32,254 nucleotides of DNA. It comes from a virus. Below the pieces are notes generated by a model. That model ran no database searches. It was not told the origin of the DNA and saw nothing but the letters and a program-made list of their open reading frames with translations. Position 1 is the first letter of the stretch; the number at the start of each line of letters is the position of its first letter. Both the position numbers and the translations under genes were made by a program. Below, piece by piece: positions 2,536 to 28,637 of this stretch. The DNA is taken from positions 1-32,254 of IMG/VR virus record IMGVR_UViG_3300027777_000092, one strand, 5' to 3'.

Positions 2536-2543
2536 TATTTATA
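2536..2543 (-). promoter_or_regulatory. T4-type late promoter (TATAAATA) for fibre A
   Basis: An exact TATAAATA on the minus strand, 19 nt before the ATG at 2516. It contains the TAA stop (2541-2539) of the preceding fibre gene. With T4 spacing, transcription would begin near 2530 and leave a leader of about 13 nt without a Shine-Dalgarno sequence. Confidence 0.7.
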
Positions 2544-4595: not shown

Positions 4596-4603
4596 TATTT
4601 ATC
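4596..4603 (-). promoter_or_regulatory. T4-type late promoter (GATAAATA) for fibre B
   Basis: GATAAATA on the minus strand with only five bases (GTATT) before the ATG at 4590. Using the T4 geometry (box at -13 to -6), the transcript would start on the A of the ATG, so the mRNA would be leaderless. The match to NATAAATA is exact. Activity is inferred. Confidence 0.65.
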
Positions 4604-5278: not shown

Positions 5279-5286
5279 TATTTATA
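5279..5286 (-). promoter_or_regulatory. T4-type late promoter (TATAAATA)
   Basis: An exact TATAAATA on the minus strand in the 34-bp gap after the RCC1-type fibre gene, 6 nt before the ATG at 5272. The expected start point at about 5273 gives a leader of roughly 1 nt. Confidence 0.7.
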
Positions 5287-5306: not shown

Positions 5307-7760
5307 TTAACCACATGTAATATCAGTGACCTTTGCAAATAATGTACGATTGCCATCTTGACGCATACCAATTCCCCATCGGCTTTGACCAGAGTGATAT
5401 ACATTACCATCACTGGTAAGTATCATTGTATATGCTCCAATATTAGTATTAAACATGCACATAATATCAGATATGGTTGAAGCGGGTGGAAAATAAACTT
5501 TAGTAAATGTAGAAATATCACTTGTTGTACCTATACCTAAGGCGCCTTGAGCATTATACCCACATGCATAAAGCGTATTTGATCCAACCAACTTAAGAAA
5601 AACATGCATTCCTACATAAGTATCATCAGCCGATCCCCACATATTTTCAACATTAACTGAACTTAACGTTGAGACTAATGTTACAGAAGTAATATTAGTT
5701 GTTGTACCATTTCCTAATTGTCCATATCCATTATATCCCCATCCATAAAGTTTATTATCGGTTGATTTTTTAATAAAGCATGACGCACCAAATACCCAAA
5801 AGTTAGCAACATTACCTGATATGGTAATTGCATATGTTGCAAGTGTTGTTGTACCATTTCCTAATTGTCCCCAACCATTATATCCCCATCCGTATAGTAT
5901 ACCAGATGAACTTAATGCATACATTGTATTATAACCATCACTGCCAGCAGAATATATTTTACTTATGCCTGTAAGATTAGTAGCTACAGCGGTTTTAACC
6001 TGTACCCATTTATTATTTATACTAGTAGTACTACCATTTGACATTTGGCCAAGACCACCATAACCTACACACCATACAGTACCATCAGAAAGTAAGGCAA
6101 TTGCAGTGTGCGGAGTGGTTGAGCCATTATAGCTTCCTGCATTTTCAATATCAATTACTGTTGTTGTAGGATTAGCATATGTGTTTCCTGGGCCAAGTAC
6201 TAATACTGGTGTACTTATACTAGTAGTTGTGCCATTACCGATTTGCCCATATTGATTATTTCCAGTCGCATATACCTTACCATCAGTTGTTAAGAAATAT
6301 ACCGTAAATGCATTAGTATCAGGACTTATTGCTACTTTTGAACAATTAGCTATGTTTAAAGTTTTTGTAAGATAAACTCGTCCTGTTGTATCACCTTGGC
6401 CCATTTGCCCATTAGCATTTGTGCCTGAGGCATATACTTCTCCAGCAGTTGTTAATACAAATACATTCTGATCATTTATATAACTCTTACTTACACTATA
6501 TGCAGCATCAGTTGATCCAAAGAAACTTGCAGGAGCTTGTATGTCCGTATTGCCAAAACGACCATTAAGATTACCAATGCCTCGAAGAGTATTATTGGAA
6601 TCGACAAATACAAATGAATCATATGAATTGCATTTCCCGCCATTTAACTTCTCAGGAAATTTTAATACTGCATTTGTTCGGCCATCAACATAACCTTTTG
6701 TTGTCAGATGAGTAGATGATGTTGGTTCAGCCGCGCTTGCATTTCCCGTTGCACTAATTGTACCGCTTGAGATTAATGATGTACCAGTAATAGCGCCTGA
6801 TGCAGTTAATGATGTTATGCCGCTTAGCGCACCTGCAAATGTTACAGCTTTTGTACTTCCATTAACTGTAACTGCAGGAGTTCCAGTTCCATTGTAAATT
6901 ACAGTATTATATGTAGCCGTATCGTCATCATAATTGGCATAAGATAGTGCCAATTCAGCTGCACTATTACCAGCATTCACCTGATTGCTATTAAGTGCCA
7001 CACCACTACTTTTTATTTGACCGCTAGTGCTGATAGTTCCACTGCTGCCACTTAATGATGTACCAGTAATAGCACCGCCAGTAATAGCACCGGTCGTTTG
7101 AATCGTCCCGCTTCCAGCATTCAATGAAACTCCAACAATAGCACCAGCATTGCTAACAGTAAATTGCGATGCTGTGCCGACATTAAGTGTCTGTGAATTG
7201 AGAAAACCTGATGCAGTAATGTTGGTACCACCAATTGTGCTGCTGCTAGTGATTGCGGCACTGTTAATTGTTCCGCTTACTTTAAAATTACCACCATTCA
7301 CATGCAACAATTCTGTTGGTGATGCTGTACCTATACCAACAGATCCTCCAGACAATATTCTTACTCTTTCCGTTGCACTCGTCAATAAGCGGATGTCGCC
7401 AGCGCCATCTTGGCTCAAGGTAAACAATCCAGTTCCATTATTGGTAACAGTAAATGTTCCGTTTGCACCAGACGCACGATTTATTGCAACATTATTACTG
7501 CCGCTCACACTACCAAGATTTATGATTGCGTCGCCACTACCTGTGCGAGCAACTCCTATGTCAACTGTAGCTGCATTACCATTGGTCACCACTGCGCCAA
7601 TCACAACCTTTCCAGTTGTGTCCCACGTAGGACTACCAGCTTCAACAGTTAATTTTTGAATAATACTATTTGTGCTTTTGCGCCATGAATTAAATGTATC
7701 GGCAACAGTAACACCATTCGTATTGATACTTGAGAAAAGATTATATTCAGAAGAGTCCAT
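5307..7760 (-). CDS. Tail fibre with a C-terminal RCC1-like beta-propeller
   Basis: An 817-residue fibre. The N-terminus (FNSWRKSTNSIIQKL) resembles adaptor segments of T4-like fibres. Residues about 60-370 are beta-repetitive shaft with fibre motifs such as SGGSVGIGTASPTELLHVNG and STHLTTKGYVDG. From about residue 391 there are RCC1-type repeats: motifs begin near 391 (divergent), 441, 495, 561, 621, 670, 729 and 786 (divergent), with the core pattern LYGWGYNGWGQLGNGTTT. Seven full blades plus a first partial unit fit a closed seven-bladed propeller. RCC1 propellers bind proteins or ligands in many settings; here the propeller likely forms the receptor-binding tip. No S74 self-cleaving chaperone domain is visible. 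The ATG at 7760 lies 6 nt after a GATAAATA box. Confidence 0.88.
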   Translation of the reverse strand: MDSSEYNLFSSINTNGVTVADTFNSWRKSTNSIIQKLTVEAGSPTWDTTGKVVIGAVVTNGNAATVDIGVARTGSGDAIINLGSVSGSNNVAINRASGANGTFTVTNNGTGLFTLSQDGAGDIRLLTSATERVRILSGGSVGIGTASPTELLHVNGGNFKVSGTINSAAITSSSTIGGTNITASGFLNSQTLNVGTASQFTVSNAGAIVGVSLNAGSGTIQTTGAITGGAITGTSLSGSSGTISTSGQIKSSGVALNSNQVNAGNSAAELALSYANYDDDTATYNTVIYNGTGTPAVTVNGSTKAVTFAGALSGITSLTASGAITGTSLISSGTISATGNASAAEPTSSTHLTTKGYVDGRTNAVLKFPEKLNGGKCNSYDSFVFVDSNNTLRGIGNLNGRFGNTDIQAPASFFGSTDAAYSVSKSYINDQNVFVLTTAGEVYASGTNANGQMGQGDTTGRVYLTKTLNIANCSKVAISPDTNAFTVYFLTTDGKVYATGNNQYGQIGNGTTTSISTPVLVLGPGNTYANPTTTVIDIENAGSYNGSTTPHTAIALLSDGTVWCVGYGGLGQMSNGSTTSINNKWVQVKTAVATNLTGISKIYSAGSDGYNTMYALSSSGILYGWGYNGWGQLGNGTTTLATYAITISGNVANFWVFGASCFIKKSTDNKLYGWGYNGYGQLGNGTTTNITSVTLVSTLSSVNVENMWGSADDTYVGMHVFLKLVGSNTLYACGYNAQGALGIGTTSDISTFTKVYFPPASTISDIMCMFNTNIGAYTMILTSDGNVYHSGQSRWGIGMRQDGNRTLFAKVTDITCG
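5701..5750. repeat. Near-identical DNA repeat in RCC1 blades, copy 1
   Basis: This 50-bp stretch matches 5848-5897 at 45 of 50 positions by direct comparison. It encodes the two most similar blade motifs (LYGWGYNGYGQLGNG and LYGWGYNGWGQLGNG). The DNA similarity points to a recent blade duplication or gene conversion. Confidence 0.75.
5848..5897. repeat. Near-identical DNA repeat in RCC1 blades, copy 2
   Basis: The partner of the repeat at 5701-5750, offset by 147 bp (49 codons). The spacing is in frame and equals one propeller blade. Confidence 0.75.
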
Positions 7761-7765
7761 TGTTG

Positions 7766-7993
7766 TTATTTATCAAGAAGCGCTATTAGTTTATTTACAG
7801 TTTCCTGCAATTGCTGTTGTGCCTGTTTAAGTTGCACTATTTCATCTTCAAGACTGATAATTTTTATTCGTGCTTCTTCTGTTGCTTTGCGTTTAGCAAT
7901 GATTGCAGCATATGCAGTGCAATCAGTATTGATGATTGCATTACTTGATGTATCACGTTCTAACGCAGTAGAGTCTTTAACCTTTATTCTCAT
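7766..7993 (-). CDS. Small coiled-coil virion-associated protein
   Basis: A 75-residue protein. Residues about 1-35 (KDSTALERDTSSNAIINTD) match a short conserved pattern I associate with small proteins in the structural cluster of T4-like cyanophages. Residues about 36-75 form a strong predicted coiled coil (EEARIKIISLEDEIVQLKQ and following). It is likely a trimeric or dimeric connector or assembly factor, but its exact role is unknown. Its ATG overlaps the stop of the 1763-residue gene (ATGA). Its own stop overlaps the late promoter of the next fibre gene. No Shine-Dalgarno sequence is well placed; GGAG lies one base from the ATG, which is too close. Confidence 0.75.
   Translation of the reverse strand: MRIKVKDSTALERDTSSNAIINTDCTAYAAIIAKRKATEEARIKIISLEDEIVQLKQAQQQLQETVNKLIALLDK
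7767..7774 (-). promoter_or_regulatory. T4-type late promoter (GATAAATA) for the RCC1-type fibre
   Basis: GATAAATA on the minus strand formed by the last codons (GAT AAA TAA) of the coiled-coil gene, 6 nt before the ATG at 7760. The predicted start point near 7761 leaves about 1 nt of leader. Confidence 0.6.
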
Positions 7994-14704: not shown

Positions 14705-14712
14705 TATTTATA
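14705..14712 (-). promoter_or_regulatory. T4-type late promoter (TATAAATA)
   Basis: An exact TATAAATA on the minus strand in the gap after the gp7-like gene, 20 nt before the ATG at 14684. This is the most conventional spacing in the window (leader about 14 nt), yet it still lacks a Shine-Dalgarno sequence. A second related box, CATAAATA at 14738-14731, overlaps the 3' end of the gp7-like gene and may act in tandem. Confidence 0.65.
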
Positions 14713-14722
14713 TACTATACCT

Positions 14723-16666
14723 TTATGCTATATTTATGATTGATGACACATTTAGCATCTTATAACTATATGATTCATCATTCATGTTTATCATCTTTTT
14801 AATTGTTTGGTTATCTCCTAAAAATCCATTTCCTAATAATGAAGGGTCTCTAAATTTTAAACCATTAAGATCATAATCGGAATTAACCAATTGTCTCTCA
14901 CTAGCTAAAGAACTTATAACAAATTGGAACATTACATTTACTTCACGCGATAATAAGATTGAATCATTGCGCAATGCAATCAATACATATTGTAATATAC
15001 TTGATGTTAACCAGCCCGGCTGATATTTAGGAGAATGCTGATGATACGAAACTGTTGAATCAGCCATATACGGAGGAATCAACGCACCTAACCAACTGTA
15101 TTGATTTTGCAAGTCAGGCAATTGGTATGAAATATAATTATCCCATGAATTAAGACTTTGCAATTCAAGTAATAATAAAGTAAATAATTTTAAACCGGCC
15201 GGGTGAACAAATTTTAAGAATGAATCTCGCCATGTTGATGGATCACTGTTTGAACTTATTTCATATGAATAGTTTTGCCAATAAGTACTGTCTTGAATCT
15301 TATATGCATCTGAAGCAAATCCTTTATGATCTTCATACACATATTCTGGTATAGTCTGCAATACCCAAACTATGCTATGACCAGGTAAGCTGCCATCATC
15401 AGTGCATTTATATACATGACGGTTTGGCCAAGATCCATAGCGCGCATAAACATTACCATCTACCGGTTGTGTAGCATCACCATCACCATCAACAAAATGT
15501 AAGAATGGACGCCCACTAGTTGTTGAAATTAAGTTATCCCAAAGTACTTCTGGATCATCAGTTGGAGGTTGTATAGAAGTTGATTCTGCATACCAATAAC
15601 CTGCCGTAATACCGCTGCTGGATATTGATAAAGATCCAGCGGAATCAAATACAGCTGTCCAAGCCGATACCAAATCTGGTGTTAATACATTTTCATGTGA
15701 AAGCCATGTTGGATTAAATTCATTAACCTTTGTTATTATAATCCATACATTAGATCCGCTATCCCAATAACATTTTTGGTAAGGGTCACTCGTACTTGTA
15801 TAAAGCGGTTTATTATTTAAAGTTCCATTTTCATACAAATCATTAAAAATTACATTTTGACTAAGATTTCTAACATACAAATCACCGGAAATTGTTAATG
15901 TCTTGCCAGCGCCTCCCCGCAAAATCCATAATGAATAAAATGTATCCCAATATAATGCATAAGGTTGCAATTGTAAATTATTAAGTGTACCATCACCAGT
16001 ATACGCAAAAAAATCGCCATACATACCGGCACATGTTAATGGCGGAAATGTTATTGGGACATTTTCACTCTCTAAAATTGGACTTAATGTTAATGCTGTT
16101 GTGCTAGATAATGTTAATAATGAATCTGCTCCATTATAAGCAGTCATTAAATTTTCAAATCCAGTTGAGTTAATGACTATTGTATCAGTCACGCCATTCA
16201 CAGGCGGAGCAGTCAATTCCAATGGAGGGACATCGTACGGATCCCAATTTATTTGTCCGCTTGATGGAGTAAAAAGGTATTCTTTAGGATAAAAGATTGA
16301 TACCGTTTCATTTAAGAATATCTTAAAGAATGCAACTATACTATCTTCACTTCCACGCGTATTGTAATACTTTACAATGATTTTATACAATGAAACTTTA
16401 TCTAAAGAAGAACTATTTGGAATATTTTTTGCAATAAGTTCTTGTATATTGTCAAGATACTTATTACTTACAGAATCAATATCTTTATCTGTAAGTATAC
16501 TTCCTATTTCACATGATGGTAATCCATCAGTATTAAGGTAATCATAATACTCTTGGATGAATGAAATTATATTTGCGGCACCGCTTTGTATATTATTTGG
16601 AAATAATGATTGTGTTCTTACACTTTCAACATTTCTTGGCCGGCCGTCTGCAATACTTAATAGCAT
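14723..16666 (-). CDS. 7: Baseplate wedge protein, gp7-like
   Basis: A 647-residue wedge protein. The first 135 residues are the conserved part, with YYDYLNTDGLPSCEIGSI, a helical segment (IQELIAKNIPNSSSLDK) and KYYNTRGSEDSIVAFFKIF followed by YPKE. This signature is shared by wedge proteins encoded next to gp6 in T4-like marine phages. T4 gp7 is much longer (about 1030 residues), so equivalence to gp7 rests mainly on position after gp6. The later part contains repeated small modules of the YPNRHVYKC/WVL type, about residues 200-450. It starts 6 bp after the gp6 stop and is clearly in one operon with gp6. Structural role confident; gp7 name moderate. Confidence 0.7.
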   Translation of the reverse strand: MLLSIADGRPRNVESVRTQSLFPNNIQSGAANIISFIQEYYDYLNTDGLPSCEIGSILTDKDIDSVSNKYLDNIQELIAKNIPNSSSLDKVSLYKIIVKYYNTRGSEDSIVAFFKIFLNETVSIFYPKEYLFTPSSGQINWDPYDVPPLELTAPPVNGVTDTIVINSTGFENLMTAYNGADSLLTLSSTTALTLSPILESENVPITFPPLTCAGMYGDFFAYTGDGTLNNLQLQPYALYWDTFYSLWILRGGAGKTLTISGDLYVRNLSQNVIFNDLYENGTLNNKPLYTSTSDPYQKCYWDSGSNVWIIITKVNEFNPTWLSHENVLTPDLVSAWTAVFDSAGSLSISSSGITAGYWYAESTSIQPPTDDPEVLWDNLISTTSGRPFLHFVDGDGDATQPVDGNVYARYGSWPNRHVYKCTDDGSLPGHSIVWVLQTIPEYVYEDHKGFASDAYKIQDSTYWQNYSYEISSNSDPSTWRDSFLKFVHPAGLKLFTLLLLELQSLNSWDNYISYQLPDLQNQYSWLGALIPPYMADSTVSYHQHSPKYQPGWLTSSILQYVLIALRNDSILLSREVNVMFQFVISSLASERQLVNSDYDLNGLKFRDPSLLGNGFLGDNQTIKKMINMNDESYSYKMLNVSSIINIA

Positions 16667-18986: not shown

Positions 18987-18994
18987 TATTTATA
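18987..18994 (-). promoter_or_regulatory. T4-type late promoter (TATAAATA) for gp25-gp6-gp7
   Basis: An exact TATAAATA directly after the TGA stop (18997-18995) of the cadherin-repeat gene, with 7 nt (GAAGGTA) before the gp25 ATG. It probably drives the gp25, gp6 and gp7-like genes. Confidence 0.7.
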
Positions 18995-21900
18995 TCAAAC
19001 AGTCTTGCCTGATTTTGGCCCGCCACTTACAACACGAACTTCAATTGGTGCTGCATCTCCAGGTTTAGTTTTTCCTGCAGTATTGATTCCTGCGCTTTGA
19101 ATTTGATTATAAAGAGCAAGATCATCACCGCAATAATAATCAATAACATTGTTTGACATACCACCAGTATCGTGTACAGTAACACGTCCGCTGCCAACTG
19201 GCGTTTTATCTTTAGCATAACGTATTTCAAGAATTGTATTGCCAGTCCAATAGTTTGAAGCAACACTTATGCCTGGTACTAACGGACTATGATAACGCCC
19301 TTCAAATTGATTTGCAGCTGTTAATTTTCCGCTGCTAACTTCACTTGCAGTAGTACGATCAATACTTGCATTGCCATATGCCGTCATATACAATGGCATC
19401 CAATCACCAGTAGCAGCAGAGTCACGATTATAGAATGCTCTTATGACACTTGTGTTGCGTGTTATTTCATTTTCTATAACAGATGCACGCCCACTATAAT
19501 CAGTTTTTAACATGCCATCCCATTCAGCATGTTTATTCAATTCATCCGCAACTAAAGTTAAATATGTTTGTTTATATTGGGCATCTTTACTATCATCAGT
19601 TGTTCGACTGATATTATCATGATAAGAATATGCAAGAGTATTTAATACCGCAAGCATACGATTATAATTTTCCAAATCTTTTCCAGATAATATACTTACC
19701 TTAGCTGAATCTTTATTTAAATGTTCTTTAAGTTGGAAAATAAATGCGTCATAATCATCTTTTGGCTTAGGATTGTATGATGCATTGGCCACCGGTGAAA
19801 CTACTCCTTCAACTGCAGGAGGAGGAGTGCCTAACGGTATATTTGTAGGATTGGGCACGCGCGATCCTCCAGGCAAATAGTTGGTTGTTTTGCAAACATC
19901 AAGATTGTTTAAATTATTAAGTATATCAGATAATCCAGTGATGCCCGCAAAGTTATTTAATATATCATTAATCTTATTGACTAATGCCATTCCAGTAAGA
20001 CCTTGAGCAGCTAATAATGCTTCAATAAGAGTCTCTGGTTTAATCTTTTTAGGACTAGCTAATTCACTAATCTTTTTGATTGCATCATATTGTTTTGCAA
20101 GAGCATCAAGCTGAGATAGCAACGAGGCAGCGGTTGGATTATTAAGAAGCAATTCTTCTGCTTTCTTAATACCCATTTCCATAAGGCGATGAGGTAAATT
20201 CTTAGTACAATCTGCCAAATTTTGCACTTGATTTACCACCTGCAAATCTGATATTTCAAAAGTATCAAGAATCGATACATCAGTAACACTTCCGCCAAGA
20301 GTATTTGATTTGGATTGAAACGTTGGAACACTATCAGAAAAATCAGCACGGGTTACATTAAGAGAATATGTGGTTATGCTCGTGCCGTCTTCAGCAGTAC
20401 ATGAAACTATAAATTGATTATTACCAATCGTTACATCAAGCGGAGCACTAGACACACCAGACAGGACATCATCTCCTTCAACATCAATTTTTGCATTAGC
20501 ATCAACACAAGTTGATGTAAGAGTTAATGACGCAACATCAACTGGTAAATTAACTTGATATGCGGTAATTGCTGAAGAAAAAGACGGCACGAGATCTGCT
20601 CCGCTCGTAACTATATTTGATAGTGTTGACACATGAGATGCAGCAAGTCTTGTAACTGTGATTATGTATGTAGTGGTACTATTGTCCTGAGCAGTAACAA
20701 GAACTGTAATCGTATTGCTATTTCCTACCAATAAAAGTATTGTGGAACTAGCACTTCCGCTTATTACTGTTAATCCATTTACTTTAACAGTAGCACTAGA
20801 GTCAGTGACAGTTGGAGTTACTGTCACTGATGGGTATGCATAAGCTACGGTTGCGGTATATGTTAACGTGCCGGCGGCAAATACTGAACTTAATGTGCCA
20901 TGACTTAATGTTAAACTTGATAATGATGAAACGGTTAATGCAGTACGCGTAACGGTAATAGTATAATTTGTAACATTATGGTCTTGAGAAGTTACAGCAA
21001 TGTTAATTAGGTTTGAACCAGGCAACAAGGGTATGCTTCCACTAGATGAACCGCTTAAAACTGTTATACCATTGACAATTATTGTAGCAGTGCTATCAAC
21101 TGAAGTTGGAGTTATTGCGGCTGATGTGATAGAGTTACTTACGGTTGCCGTATATGATGTGGTCGCACTTAAAAAACTTGGACTTAATGTTAAACCGGTT
21201 AATGCTGATAGGTATGAAGAAGATGCTCGAGTGACAGTTATAACATATGTTAATGTGCCAGCTAATATACTAATTACATTAGATGATCCTACAGCTAAAC
21301 TTATACTACCGCTAGCAACTCCACTCGATACAACTATACCATTAACATATATTGTGCTTGTACTAGTTGGCGTAACTGTTATACTTGATGTATCATTTGT
21401 TACATTTAAAGTATAATTTGGGACAGCACTATTAAAAGCAGGACTTAATGTTCCGCTACTTACTGTTAAACCAGACAATGCAGGATTGCGCATAACTGTA
21501 AGAGTATATGAAGTAGTTGACGGATCTGCTGTACTTACTGTAATAACATTAGTTCCTACATTTAGCAGCAAAGGTAAACTTGATGTACCGCTTGTCACAA
21601 CATTACTATTGCTATTCGTGACAGTAATAGTATAAGTAGATGTAGGTACTATGACAAGTGATGTTATAGTATTTGGTATACTTAATGTATATGATGTTGT
21701 ACTATTTACAAATGCCGGGCTTAATGTTCCGCTGTTAACTAATAAACCGGTCAACGGTCCTGCTCTTATTACAGTTATTGTATATGTTAATTGTTGTCCA
21801 CCGCTTATTGCGGTGGTAATAATTGTAATTATGTTCGATCCAATTGAGACTGGTATACTTGCACTAGCACTTCCGCTCGTTACGGTTACTCCATTTACTG

Positions 21901-22054
21901 TAATAGTAGCTCCCCCTCCACTTATAGTTGGAGTAACGGTTACTGATGTAACGGTGGTTACAATTGCATCGGTATAATTATATTGAGATCCACTAAATGA
22001 TGGGCTTAACGCGCCGGAACTAATTGTTAAGTTTGTAAGAGGTACTGCAGCCAT
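18995..22054 (-). CDS. Hub-associated protein: six cadherin-like beta-sandwich repeats plus a C-terminal 3D domain
   Basis: A 1019-residue protein encoded between the spike and gp25. Residues about 6-567 are six tandem cadherin-like beta-sandwich repeats (PF12733 type) of 85-100 residues, each opening like LTNLTISSGALSPSF and closing like TYTITVTR. About 570-880 is mostly helical with a Pro-rich linker (PPPAVEGVVSPV). Residues about 883-1019 resemble a 3D (Asp-Asp-Asp) double-psi beta-barrel domain: YMTAYGNAS at the start, then VTVHDTGGM with Asp962 and NVIDYY with Asp972. Such domains occur in MltA-like transglycosylases and resuscitation factors that cut peptidoglycan. A role in cell-wall penetration at the hub is inferred from the domain and position. 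The first family Asp is unclear, so activity is uncertain. The ATG lies 4 bp after the spike gene stop. Confidence 0.82.
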   Translation of the reverse strand: MAAVPLTNLTISSGALSPSFSGSQYNYTDAIVTTVTSVTVTPTISGGGATITVNGVTVTSGSASASIPVSIGSNIITIITTAISGGQQLTYTITVIRAGPLTGLLVNSGTLSPAFVNSTTSYTLSIPNTITSLVIVPTSTYTITVTNSNSNVVTSGTSSLPLLLNVGTNVITVSTADPSTTSYTLTVMRNPALSGLTVSSGTLSPAFNSAVPNYTLNVTNDTSSITVTPTSTSTIYVNGIVVSSGVASGSISLAVGSSNVISILAGTLTYVITVTRASSSYLSALTGLTLSPSFLSATTSYTATVSNSITSAAITPTSVDSTATIIVNGITVLSGSSSGSIPLLPGSNLINIAVTSQDHNVTNYTITVTRTALTVSSLSSLTLSHGTLSSVFAAGTLTYTATVAYAYPSVTVTPTVTDSSATVKVNGLTVISGSASSTILLLVGNSNTITVLVTAQDNSTTTYIITVTRLAASHVSTLSNIVTSGADLVPSFSSAITAYQVNLPVDVASLTLTSTCVDANAKIDVEGDDVLSGVSSAPLDVTIGNNQFIVSCTAEDGTSITTYSLNVTRADFSDSVPTFQSKSNTLGGSVTDVSILDTFEISDLQVVNQVQNLADCTKNLPHRLMEMGIKKAEELLLNNPTAASLLSQLDALAKQYDAIKKISELASPKKIKPETLIEALLAAQGLTGMALVNKINDILNNFAGITGLSDILNNLNNLDVCKTTNYLPGGSRVPNPTNIPLGTPPPAVEGVVSPVANASYNPKPKDDYDAFIFQLKEHLNKDSAKVSILSGKDLENYNRMLAVLNTLAYSYHDNISRTTDDSKDAQYKQTYLTLVADELNKHAEWDGMLKTDYSGRASVIENEITRNTSVIRAFYNRDSAATGDWMPLYMTAYGNASIDRTTASEVSSGKLTAANQFEGRYHSPLVPGISVASNYWTGNTILEIRYAKDKTPVGSGRVTVHDTGGMSNNVIDYYCGDDLALYNQIQSAGINTAGKTKPGDAAPIEVRVVSGGPKSGKTV

Positions 22055-22058
22055 AAAA

Positions 22059-22844
22059 TTAGTTTAGTTTGATATTACTCCCCTTGATGATGGTATCAGC
22101 ACCATTTGACAATACATTTATTCCTTTGCCATTTATATTGGTTGCACTCTTTGAAGAATATGTTGCGCCTGCACCAGATGTAACAGCAATTCCTTTTGCA
22201 TTAACCGTGGTTGTTGCAAATGATGCAACATCTATATTCTTTGCAACCACAACCAATGTACCAGAAGTGGTTAAAGTATTTTTTCCTAAGACGGTTGTCA
22301 GGTTCATGCCATGAACGGTACTGGTGTTGGTACTATATACATCAGTCTTATTTGTGCCTGTAATATACAATGTATTGTTTCCTCCTATATGCAATGAATA
22401 GTCATCATGCACTGTAACTTTACCGCCAGCACCAATATTCATTGCATACTCATCAGCAATTTCCATTACATATTGAGCACCTACTTTAGTACGACGTGTT
22501 CCTTTTACAGTTTCATTATAATCACCATTTACTTCAAGATTATAGTTGCCATTCACAACCGTATTGCAATTGCCAAGAACAGTTATATTTACATGACCTT
22601 CAACTGTAATATTGTCTTCGCCATGAACTACTTTATAACCATTGCCATACACAGTAATAGTACGGTCACCGGTTGCATTAATTTCTTCGCTAGTACCACT
22701 CTTGTGTTGTCTTAGCAAACGCTCATGACCAAGAGTGTCATCAACTTCAAAAATGTGGCCACCGCGTGTTTGTGTTACATTATTAAATGGGTAAACCGAT
22801 CCATCGGTTGGATGCGGCCTGCTCCATGTTTCATTGTTTGCCAT
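22059..22844 (-). CDS. Central spike, gp5 C-terminal beta-helix as a separate gene
   Basis: A 261-residue protein starting MANNETWSRPHPTDG. After about 45 residues (TRGGHIFEVDDTLGHERL, a typical segment before the needle) it becomes a run of short repeats of the VxGxxxxx octad type, such as VYGNGYKVVHGEDNITVEGH and VNGNYNLEVNGDYNETVKG. These form the trimeric triple-stranded beta-helix that pierces the outer membrane in T4 gp5. In T4 it is joined to OB and lysozyme domains in one chain; here it is its own gene, immediately after the OB-CHAP gene. The start at 22844 is preferred to one at 22874 because it begins at the conserved sequence, avoids overlap with the upstream gene, and follows a late promoter box by 5 nt. 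Confidence 0.9.
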   Translation of the reverse strand: MANNETWSRPHPTDGSVYPFNNVTQTRGGHIFEVDDTLGHERLLRQHKSGTSEEINATGDRTITVYGNGYKVVHGEDNITVEGHVNITVLGNCNTVVNGNYNLEVNGDYNETVKGTRRTKVGAQYVMEIADEYAMNIGAGGKVTVHDDYSLHIGGNNTLYITGTNKTDVYSTNTSTVHGMNLTTVLGKNTLTTSGTLVVVAKNIDVASFATTTVNAKGIAVTSGAGATYSSKSATNINGKGINVLSNGADTIIKGSNIKLN

Positions 22845-22849
22845 AAGTA

Positions 22850-22857
22850 TATTTATC
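22850..22857 (-). promoter_or_regulatory. T4-type late promoter (GATAAATA) for the spike gene
   Basis: GATAAATA on the minus strand shares its GA with the TGA stop (22858-22856) of the OB-CHAP gene and lies 5 nt before the ATG at 22844. T4 geometry places transcription start on that ATG, again predicting a leaderless mRNA. Confidence 0.6.
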
Positions 22858-26643: not shown

Positions 26644-27546
26644 TTAAACCGTTTTTGTTACCGTGCTGTTTACAACAGAGGCTTGAGTTGTGGTAGGATT
26701 AGCTGCACTGTTACCAGTTACATCAGCTGTTGCAGCTGGAACATTATAATTTGCAAGGAAACGACTCTTATCATATGGATTATTTTCAAGGAATTTAATA
26801 TCGTCTTTTGTAAGAGCACGCGATTCAATGAAGGTTAATGTTATTTCACTGTCTAATGGACTGCCATCAGTTCTCCACATATTAGCAATACTATTATATG
26901 TACTTGACATACTTTCCAAATAACATTCAAACAACTTAGGCAAGTATTCAATATCATTACCAGTTATACCATGAATAAACTGAATTGTCCATGTAGCTGG
27001 ATATTGTAATTGGTAAGCATTACCCTGTGGATATAAGCCAAGACGAAATGCTTTTGATATATCATTTATTCGTTGCGATTCATCAGATGATACAGAAATA
27101 AATTTAAACACAAATGAAAATCGGCGGGTGGCAGTTCCAGTAAACTGAGTAGTTATATTTTTATTTAAGGTGGCGCCAACGCCAATACTTACAGCTGATT
27201 GTACTTGTGAACTTGCTTTACCATAACTAGCCGATAATCCTTGTGCAAGATTACCTAAACTTTTTGGTATACCTCCAGCTATTGCACCCATACCAGCGCT
27301 TACACCAGCTCCTATATTACCGCCTGTGCCCAAACCTTCACGTGCAGCAGCCATACCAGCTCCTCCAGAGAATCCAAGTTCAGCATCATTATAAGTTGCT
27401 GCATCAGCAAATGCTATATTTTGCGGTATTGGCATACATACACAAACACTAGAACCAGGCTCAGTTCCAAAACTTTGGAATCTGATCATTGGGCGATCAG
27501 TTGTGGCTTGCAATTCAAGTGGGTATACTAATATTTGAGCGGACAT
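26644..27546 (-). CDS. 48: Baseplate tail-tube cap / initiator, gp48/gp54-like
   Basis: A 300-residue protein. Conserved parts are the N-terminal MPIPQNIAFADAATYND segment (about residues 38-54), an Ala/Gly-rich hydrophobic segment (about 57-110), and a C-terminal half with RRFSFVFKFISVS, YPATWTIQFIHG, LPKLFECYLESMSSTYN and ITLTFIESRALTKDDIK. These mark the tube-cap proteins on which the tail tube polymerises. gp48 and gp54 share the fold, so either name may apply. The frame is open upstream to 27756, but the ATG at 27546 is the start: conserved sequence begins there and it lies under the divergent promoter. It is the first gene of the leftward arm. Confidence 0.82.
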   Translation of the reverse strand: MSAQILVYPLELQATTDRPMIRFQSFGTEPGSSVCVCMPIPQNIAFADAATYNDAELGFSGGAGMAAAREGLGTGGNIGAGVSAGMGAIAGGIPKSLGNLAQGLSASYGKASSQVQSAVSIGVGATLNKNITTQFTGTATRRFSFVFKFISVSSDESQRINDISKAFRLGLYPQGNAYQLQYPATWTIQFIHGITGNDIEYLPKLFECYLESMSSTYNSIANMWRTDGSPLDSEITLTFIESRALTKDDIKFLENNPYDKSRFLANYNVPAATADVTGNSAANPTTTQASVVNSTVTKTV

Positions 27547-27553
27547 ATAAATA
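27546..27553 (+). promoter_or_regulatory. T4-type late promoter (TATAAATA) for gp4, rightward
   Basis: An exact TATAAATA with 14 nt before the gp4 ATG at 27568. Its first T is also the complement of the A of the leftward ATG. The expected transcription start near 27559 gives a leader of about 9 nt with no Shine-Dalgarno sequence. Confidence 0.8.
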
Positions 27554-27560
27554 CTATAAC

Positions 27561-27568
27561 TATTTATA
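27561..27568 (-). promoter_or_regulatory. T4-type late promoter (TATAAATA) for the leftward arm
   Basis: An exact TATAAATA on the minus strand, mirror image of the rightward box, with 14 nt before the tube-cap ATG at 27546. Its first base pairs with the A of the gp4 ATG. The predicted leader is about 9 nt and lacks a Shine-Dalgarno sequence. Confidence 0.8.
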
Positions 27569-28017
27569 TGACATACAGTGGCAAATTTAATCCTGTGAAT
27601 ATAGGAAAATACGAAGGTGACTTTCGCTGTATAAAATACCGCAGCCTTTGGGAGCGCAATACATTCCGTTGGTGTGACATAAATGATGCAATTGTTCGCT
27701 GGAGCAGTGAAGAAGTCATCGTACCTTATCGGTGTAAAACAGATAATCGAGTACATCGTTATTTTGTTGATCTTAAAATTACCTTTAAGAATGGTGATAC
27801 ATATCTTATCGAAATTAAACCCAAGAAAGAGACGCTCGAGCCAAAGAAAAGAGCTAGAACTAGCAAAGGTTATCTTAAAGAAGTGTTAACATATGTAAAG
27901 AATATGAGTAAGTGGGAAGCAGCACATGCTTATGCTCAACAGCGCGGTTGGAAATTTGAGGTATGGCATGAAGATACTCTTAAATCTCTCGGAATTAAAT
28001 TACTGCTTAAAGGTTAA
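27568..28017 (+). CDS. 4: Head completion protein gp4
   Basis: A 149-residue protein, almost the same length as T4 gp4 (150). It has the family pattern YSGKFNPVNIGKYEGDF, IKYRSLWER, FRWCDIND, IVRWSSEEVIVPY and HRYFVDLKI, followed by YLIEIKPKKET. Asp68 and the Glu82-x-Lys84 pair resemble a PD-(D/E)xK nuclease core, as noted for this family; whether it cuts DNA is unproven. gp4 acts late in head maturation before tails join. The ATG at 27568 is chosen over an upstream ATG at 27535 because conserved sequence starts there and it lies correctly under the rightward late promoter. In T4 gene 4 is transcribed in the same direction as gene 53; here it is divergent. Confidence 0.93.
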   Translation: MTYSGKFNPVNIGKYEGDFRCIKYRSLWERNTFRWCDINDAIVRWSSEEVIVPYRCKTDNRVHRYFVDLKITFKNGDTYLIEIKPKKETLEPKKRARTSKGYLKEVLTYVKNMSKWEAAHAYAQQRGWKFEVWHEDTLKSLGIKLLLKG

Positions 28018-28021
28018 GACA

Positions 28022-28029
28022 TATAAATA
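28022..28029 (+). promoter_or_regulatory. T4-type late promoter (TATAAATA)
   Basis: An exact TATAAATA 11 nt before the ATG at 28041. The predicted start point near 28035 leaves about 6 nt of leader (CGCAT side) and no Shine-Dalgarno sequence. Confidence 0.7.
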
Positions 28030-28040
28030 TACTTGCGCAT

Positions 28041-28637
28041 ATGGCATCCAAGACTACATTTAGCTTTGAAAAGTATCACGACCAATTGTCCGCTAGCGGT
28101 ATAACTGCGCATACCAATAAAAGTCGTGCATGGTTTTTTGATAAGCTTAAAGGATTAAGTAATATAGATCGTCGAAAGTTGCTTAAAGATCAGGCGCTTA
28201 ATCCAATGCATCGTCCATTACCCGGGCGAATGTTTATGTTTTTTTATGATCCTAAAGGTAAAGAAGAATTGCCATACTATGACCGCTTCCCGTTAATCAT
28301 TATGGTAGGAAAAGCCAAAGGCGGATTCTATGGTCTTAACTTACATTATCTACCAAATAAATTGCGCGCACTATTCTTTGACAAGTTGTTATCGTTTACA
28401 AACAATGATAAGTATGATGAAACCACAAAGTTTAAGCTAACATACAATATGTTGAGTAGCGTGTCTAGTCTAAAATACTTTGCTCCTTGTTTTAAACACT
28501 ATCTTTTTGCACATCTAGATAGTGTGCCTGTGGAAGTGCCATCAACCGATTGGGAAATTGCCGTATGCCTGCCAACTTGGAAATTTGTTGGAAATGATAA
28601 GACTAGTGTATGGAAAGAGTCTCTTAAACAATTTTAA
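28041..28637 (+). CDS. Conserved T4-like phage protein, function unassigned
   Basis: A 198-residue basic, aromatic-rich soluble protein. Its core (GRMFMFFYDPKGKEELPYYD, then FPLIIMVGKAKGGFYGLNLH and YLPNKLRALFFDKLL, about residues 60-115) looks like a conserved domain I associate with T4-like phages of aquatic bacteria. I cannot tie it to a T4 gene with certainty. Its place after gp4 recalls the T4 head-completion cluster (genes 2 and 4), so a head- or DNA-end-related role is possible, but this is position only. It has its own late promoter and ends 2 bp before the tail-tube-fold gene. Confidence 0.8.
   Translation: MASKTTFSFEKYHDQLSASGITAHTNKSRAWFFDKLKGLSNIDRRKLLKDQALNPMHRPLPGRMFMFFYDPKGKEELPYYDRFPLIIMVGKAKGGFYGLNLHYLPNKLRALFFDKLLSFTNNDKYDETTKFKLTYNMLSSVSSLKYFAPCFKHYLFAHLDSVPVEVPSTDWEIAVCLPTWKFVGNDKTSVWKESLKQF

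Follow-up and report, generated by a model that had tools for sequence, protein, structure and literature searches.

Late transcription of phage T4 is a textbook system, and the late mRNAs are assumed to have ordinary leaders. Transcription starts six bases 3' of the late box, which occupies positions -13 to -6 (PMC1524935). Near-symmetric DNA that is used by RNA polymerase in two orientations is also known from bacterial bidirectional promoters, which are built from overlapping -10 elements of the sigma-70 type and have mapped starts at a separation of 7-25 bp, most often 18, and in which the two directions can compete where one of them is strong (Warman et al.; PMC10268837, PMC12825309); in E. 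coli, competition matters only in that situation (PMC12825309). In the Deinococcus-Thermus group, a promoter box located directly 5' of the ORF yields mRNAs without a leader (PMC12340547). In pelagimyophages, late promoters were reportedly not found with the method used for cyanophages (PMC7029224). A survey of the open-access literature yielded nothing relevant on leaderless late mRNAs in T4-like phages.

Here we analysed a viral DNA of 32,254 nucleotides (IMGVR_UViG_3300027777_000092), the whole of which is referred to as the window. A search for near-identical DNA among known phages gave no match to it. At the junction between two divergent virion genes, a head closure gene (gp4-like) and a baseplate tail tube cap gene (gp48-like), lies a 27-bp unit, CATATAAATACTATAACTATTTATATG, that we consider very probably to be a pair of interleaved divergent late promoters of the T4 type (gp55/gp33/gp45), situated at a conserved junction between gp4 and the tail cap and wedge operon. 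The features of the unit and the other late boxes in the window are listed in Table 1.

Table 1. Features of the divergent late-promoter unit, its flanking genes and further late boxes in the window.
Feature	Position	Strand	Remarks
Divergent late-promoter unit, 27 bp	27544-27570		CATATAAATA-CTATAAC-TATTTATATG; coordinates and sequence confirmed as exact
Left arm CATATAAATA	27544-27553		perfect, 10 bp
Spacer CTATAAC	27554-27560		7 bp, AT-rich
Right arm TATTTATATG	27561-27570		perfect, 10 bp
Late box TATAAATA of gp4-like gene	27546-27553	+	exact; overlaps ATG of minus-strand gene
Late box TATAAATA of gp48-like gene	27568-27561	-	exact; overlaps ATG of plus-strand gene
ATG of gp4-like gene	27568-27570	+
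ATG of gp48-like gene	27546-27544	-
Predicted +1 of gp4 transcript	27559	+	from T4 geometry; 9-nt leader without Shine-Dalgarno (SD) sequence
Predicted +1 of gp48 transcript	27555	-	from T4 geometry; 9-nt leader without SD sequence
Baseplate tail tube cap, gp48-like	26644-27546	-	phrog_230, 2.7e-29
Head closure, gp4-like	27568-28017	+	phrog_218, 9e-53
Additional late box	28022-28029	+	11 nt 5' of DNA end protector ATG
DNA end protector, gp2-like	28041-28637	+
Late box GATAAATA	22850-22857	-	5 nt 5' of ATG 22844; predicted leaderless; this start lies 30 nt inside the TTG start of the ORF list
Inverted repeat TCAGTGACAGT / ACTGTCACTGA	20802-20830		within large ORF 18995-22054 (no match in PHROG)
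Late box TATAAATA	18987-18994	-	7 nt 5' of ATG 18979; baseplate wedge, phrog_261
Second late box CATAAATA	14731-14738	-	also 5' of ATG 14684
Late box TATAAATA	14705-14712	-	20 nt 5' of ATG 14684
Late box GATAAATA	7767-7774	-	6 nt 5' of ATG 7760
Late box TATAAATA	5279-5286	-	6 nt 5' of ATG 5272
Late box GATAAATA	4596-4603	-	5 nt 5' of ATG 4590; predicted leaderless
Late box TATAAATA	2536-2543	-	19 nt 5' of ATG 2516

The palindrome anatomy and coordinates given in an earlier note on this DNA proved exact, as did the distance of 14 nt from box to ATG for both genes. Each box carries the 8-bp sequence of a T4-type late promoter, TATAAATA (NATAAATA), immediately 5' of a virion gene. One base is common to each box and the start-codon triplet of the opposite gene, with the other two bases of the triplet adjoining the box; the two promoters thus each contain the other's start codon, as the note had described, and their footprints must overlap. 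Both gene starts agree with those of the relatives, which open with MTY/MAY-x-GKF in the gp4-like protein and align at M-x-x-x-(I/L)-(L/V)-YP-x-EL in the gp48-like protein. No gene for gp55 or gp45 was identified in the window, and since the window is a 32-kb fragment, recognition of the gp55 type is argued from relatives, two of which (G009 and G019) have homologues of both proteins. G009, a relative of 174 kb, also has 18 tRNA genes in an array (L121) and a tmRNA call by ARAGORN (L120, 9001-9327) with an odd 27-residue tag, which may be a false call; another relative, G002, has an array of 23 tRNA genes (L101, about 19.9-29.1 kb).

We compared the junction to those of related phages. In the seven distinct contigs with the unit, the 21-bp segment that separates the two start codons has a mean pairwise identity of 98.6%; for third codon positions in these contigs, the mean is 62% (gp4) and 51% (gp48). 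The unit is thus kept while the flanking genes diverge, the pattern for which the earlier note had proposed to test by aligning the junction. In one of the seven (L016), the ATG on the minus strand has moved by two bases, with the boxes and the spacer retained. The exact motif CATATAAATA-N4..14-TATTTATATG was recovered from 46 IMG/VR contigs, with gp4 on one side in 30; in the other 16, one or both sides open no more than a trivial ORF. One or both boxes are present at most of about 50 distinct gp4 junctions, where they are interleaved, overlap or lie back-to-back. In several relatives a strict box is limited to a single side, and at this junction the boxes of some cyanophages are all degenerate. 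The note had named relatives with the same divergent genes but neither box as contrary evidence, and such cases were seen only among more distant phages, for example P-RSM6, where no strict box was found on either side.

Facing pairs of the type TATAAATA-N0..16-TATTTATA in the related contigs were always located at the gp4 junction (N5-N12) and never elsewhere. The only such pair in C48C1 is at the gp4/gp48 junction (N9), and the only one in T4 is at the gp4/gp53 junction (NC_000866, about 77.34-77.38 kb), with the same N7 spacing and topology as in the window, a parallel that the earlier note had missed. In contrast to the window, the boxes in T4 are 26 and 28 nt from their ATGs, with the SD sequences AGGAG and AGGAGGG, the start codons lie outside the boxes, and the partner of gp4 is gp53 rather than gp48. 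Because T4, C48C1 and the related contigs carry the pair at the gp4 junction, the promoter pair is probably ancestral and older than the phage in the window, whereas the fusion of boxes and start codons is probably a derived, lineage-specific compaction found in only some aquatic relatives.

Divergent junctions are a usual location for operators, and the palindrome, with its perfect 10-bp dyad, could accordingly be a symmetric site for a dimeric DNA-binding regulator of both genes. This is very unlikely. The arm spacing in relatives with these genes ranges from an overlap (-2) through 5, 7, 9 and 11 to 12 bp, too wide a range for a rigid dimer, and the conserved spacer, CTATAAC, is asymmetric; it is on these two grounds that we rejected an operator. 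Moreover, the arms are longer than the boxes only at junctions with an overlapping start codon, and single half-sites are present 5-7 nt before many other genes.

Bacteria do use AT-rich dyads of this kind as sigma-70 promoters that fire in both directions (PMC10268837; PMC12825309), and a host promoter with TATAAT-like -10 elements that is used early in infection would be another way to account for the unit. We regard it as very improbable, as the sequence matches the late consensus 8-mer and not TATAAT, both genes are virion genes, and the identical 8-mer is located 5' of other virion genes in the window as well as in the cultured SAR11 (Pelagibacter) phage HTVC008M.

We also considered whether the unit is a chance inverted repeat in an AT-rich junction, with one box or neither being functional. 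Perfect 10-bp inverted arms are indeed expected about once per window (0.98 expected, 4 observed, a number reached in 5.5% of the shuffles), and TATAAATA is not enriched (9 copies versus 7.4 expected). However, a facing pair TATAAATA-N0..16-TATTTATA arose in only 21 of 3000 dinucleotide shuffles (0.7%), and the full unit, a facing pair with CA..TG ends, in none of the 3000; the pair coincides with a real pair of divergent starts. The conservation well above that of neutral sites and the boxes with positional homology in T4 and C48C1 also speak against chance, which is exceedingly unlikely. The perfect arms and the equal distances, cited as evidence in the earlier note, are present but not independent: each ATG overlaps the opposite box (CA+TATAAATA), so they follow from the overlap and are no evidence of symmetry beyond that of a box plus the opposite ATG. 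A hairpin, terminator or antisense overlap at the RNA level is hardly credible and was rejected on geometry, since the inverted repeat has arm cores of only A and U with no T-run, and the predicted starts inside the spacer would leave no transcript with both arms and no overlap between transcripts.

Two interleaved late promoters would each require no more than an 8-bp box of their own plus the AT-rich 7-bp spacer, the segment to be melted by both. RNA polymerase, presumably directed by gp55 at both boxes, would bind facing either way and start near 27559 rightward or near 27555 leftward. From the geometry, binding would be mutually exclusive at any instant, and the two directions could, hypothetically, alternate. 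The predicted leaders of 9 nt (ACTATTTAT, AGTATTTAT; d=14) mean that gp4 and gp48 in the window do not classify as leaderless; neither leader contains an SD sequence, and translation of the late mRNAs would be SD-independent.

Short distances between late boxes and start codons were observed across the lineage. In the window, five further genes on the minus strand (ATGs at 22844, 18979, 7760, 5272 and 4590) have a late box 5-7 nt before the ATG. We measured how far NATAAATA lies before the next ATG that opens at least 90 codons in 13 contigs (the window and 12 relatives) and found a mode of 5 nt (39 cases), followed by 6 nt (28), 7 nt (18) and 8 nt (8), with few cases below 5 nt. In contrast, distances of 5-8 nt occurred only once in T4, Syn9, S-PM2, C48C1, phiM12, XG4 and Milchi together, with a peak at 21-30 nt in T4, Syn9 and C48C1. 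The start codon located 5 nt past the box was ATG in 40 cases, GTG in one and TTG in none, and ATAAATA was seen 70 times at 5-7 nt before an ATG in the related contigs, compared to 0.9 expected. SD-like motifs 5' of genes without a box were found at a frequency of 7% in the related set versus 6% in shuffled sequences, whereas the corresponding values were 65% and 22% in T4. The gene starts in the distance and SD statistics were set by a simple ORF rule; the statistics cover 39,900 of the 40,191 bases of G005 and the first 20 kb of G015, and some related contigs are near-duplicates, such that the counts are not all independent.

Given that T4 transcription starts six bases past the box, a distance of 5 nt places the predicted beginning of the mRNA at the A of the ATG, and the sharp lower edge of the distribution at 5 nt accords with such a start. 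Box-to-ATG geometry thus makes it likely that late mRNAs in this lineage are leaderless or ultra-short, with leaderless mRNAs predicted for ATGs 22844 and 4590 in the window and in many relatives. The overlap of box and start codon would be possible because the late leaders are so short and lack SD sequences; as judged from sequence, the true anomaly of the lineage would be that its mRNAs have hardly any leader, a point not recognised in the earlier note. The host lineage of the related contigs may not rely on SD sequences. As separate observations, a T precedes the ATG (position -1) in 56% of the genes without a box and 80% of those with a box in the related contigs G002-G020, and the core of a phage tRNA-Pro has exact matches in one betaproteobacterial and two verrucomicrobial genomes, which is too little to name a host. 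A phage S21 gene, sought as a host marker, was not found.

Cultured relatives can be compared with this pattern. HTVC008M also has late boxes exactly 5 nt before ATG, and seven such boxes in its annotated stretch match the CDS starts of the record, including those of gp48, gp2 and wedge genes (CDS starts 5 nt past NATAAATA at 6280, 7562, 16007, 18916, 19456, 31132 and 49760, all predicted to be leaderless). Unlike in the related set, its other genes keep SD signals (53% versus 22% in shuffled sequences), the boxes at its gp4 junction are back-to-back rather than interleaved, and its gp4 diverges from gp2. Melnitz has three boxes at 5 nt and mostly longer leaders.

A still shorter form of the unit, CATATAANTATTTATATG, has the two boxes fused and each ATG 5 nt past its box. 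Among the matches listed, at least 58 contigs have such a unit flanked on either side by an ORF of 80 codons or more. One of the genes is gp4 in 36 of these 58 listed contigs, and every one of the 36 combines an imperfect gp4 box (TATAAGTA in 32, TATAATTA in three and TATAACTA in one) with TATAAATA as the partner box. The other 22 listed units include 21 perfect palindromes and represent ten gene-pair families in other phages, where the 18-bp palindrome CATATAAATATTTATATG (CATATAACTATTTATATG in one family) separates unrelated divergent genes (contigs L286, L301, L328, L331, L343 and L369 plus nine other families). By eye, the genes beside these palindromes encode, for example, HNH-like, methyltransferase-like and oxygenase-like proteins. 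In these phages, any gp55-like protein that was detected (4 of 12) is a distant one, and, with one weak exception, there is no match to gp23; in four of them, boxes were likewise seen at exactly 5 nt from the ATG. We considered them as members of the same lineage and dropped the idea, given the distant or undetected gp55-like protein and the wanting gp23 match, and treat them only as carriers of similar units.

The claims in the earlier note about the output of the unit are not supported. A single unit was proposed to fire both halves of the late tail regulon, but further late boxes are located downstream on both sides; the plus side, described as tube and ruler genes, begins with the head closure and DNA end protector genes. 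Equal expression of the two sides was also proposed. We find no support for such a balance: each operon has further boxes, and the imperfect gp4 box opposite a consensus partner box in all 36 fused gp4 units among the matches listed suggests unequal output.

Compared to the bacterial bidirectional promoters, the unit shares the symmetry and the potential use in two orientations, but its boxes are putatively of the gp55 type and the start codons lie inside it. The starts predicted for the window unit are 4 bp apart, outside the 7-25 bp range of Warman and Grainger, and those of the 18-bp fused form are 13 bp apart. The leaderless genes of the Deinococcus-Thermus group differ in being cellular genes with a cellular sigma factor, and neither phages nor divergent promoters are mentioned in that study (PMC12340547).

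Taken together, we lean towards the view that, in a broad group of aquatic phages of the T4-like type, much of the late regulon is expressed from mRNAs that lack SD sequences and are leaderless or nearly so, with +1 at the A of the ATG. The extreme would be the 18-bp fusion of both promoters and both ATGs, which at the gp4 junction always combines a perfect box for the tail gene with an imperfect one for gp4, and which recurs in palindromic form at unrelated gene pairs elsewhere. If such a lineage-wide shift of the promoter onto the start codon is true, late virion proteins would be made by SD-independent initiation, promoter evolution would be bound to codon position, and start sites would be predictable to the base from the sequence. 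The placement of the box relative to the ATG may also help to explain why late promoters reportedly escaped detection in pelagimyophages (PMC7029224). The unit of 18-27 bp would represent a minimal natural bidirectional promoter, suited to measuring how the two orientations of a single polymerase compete.
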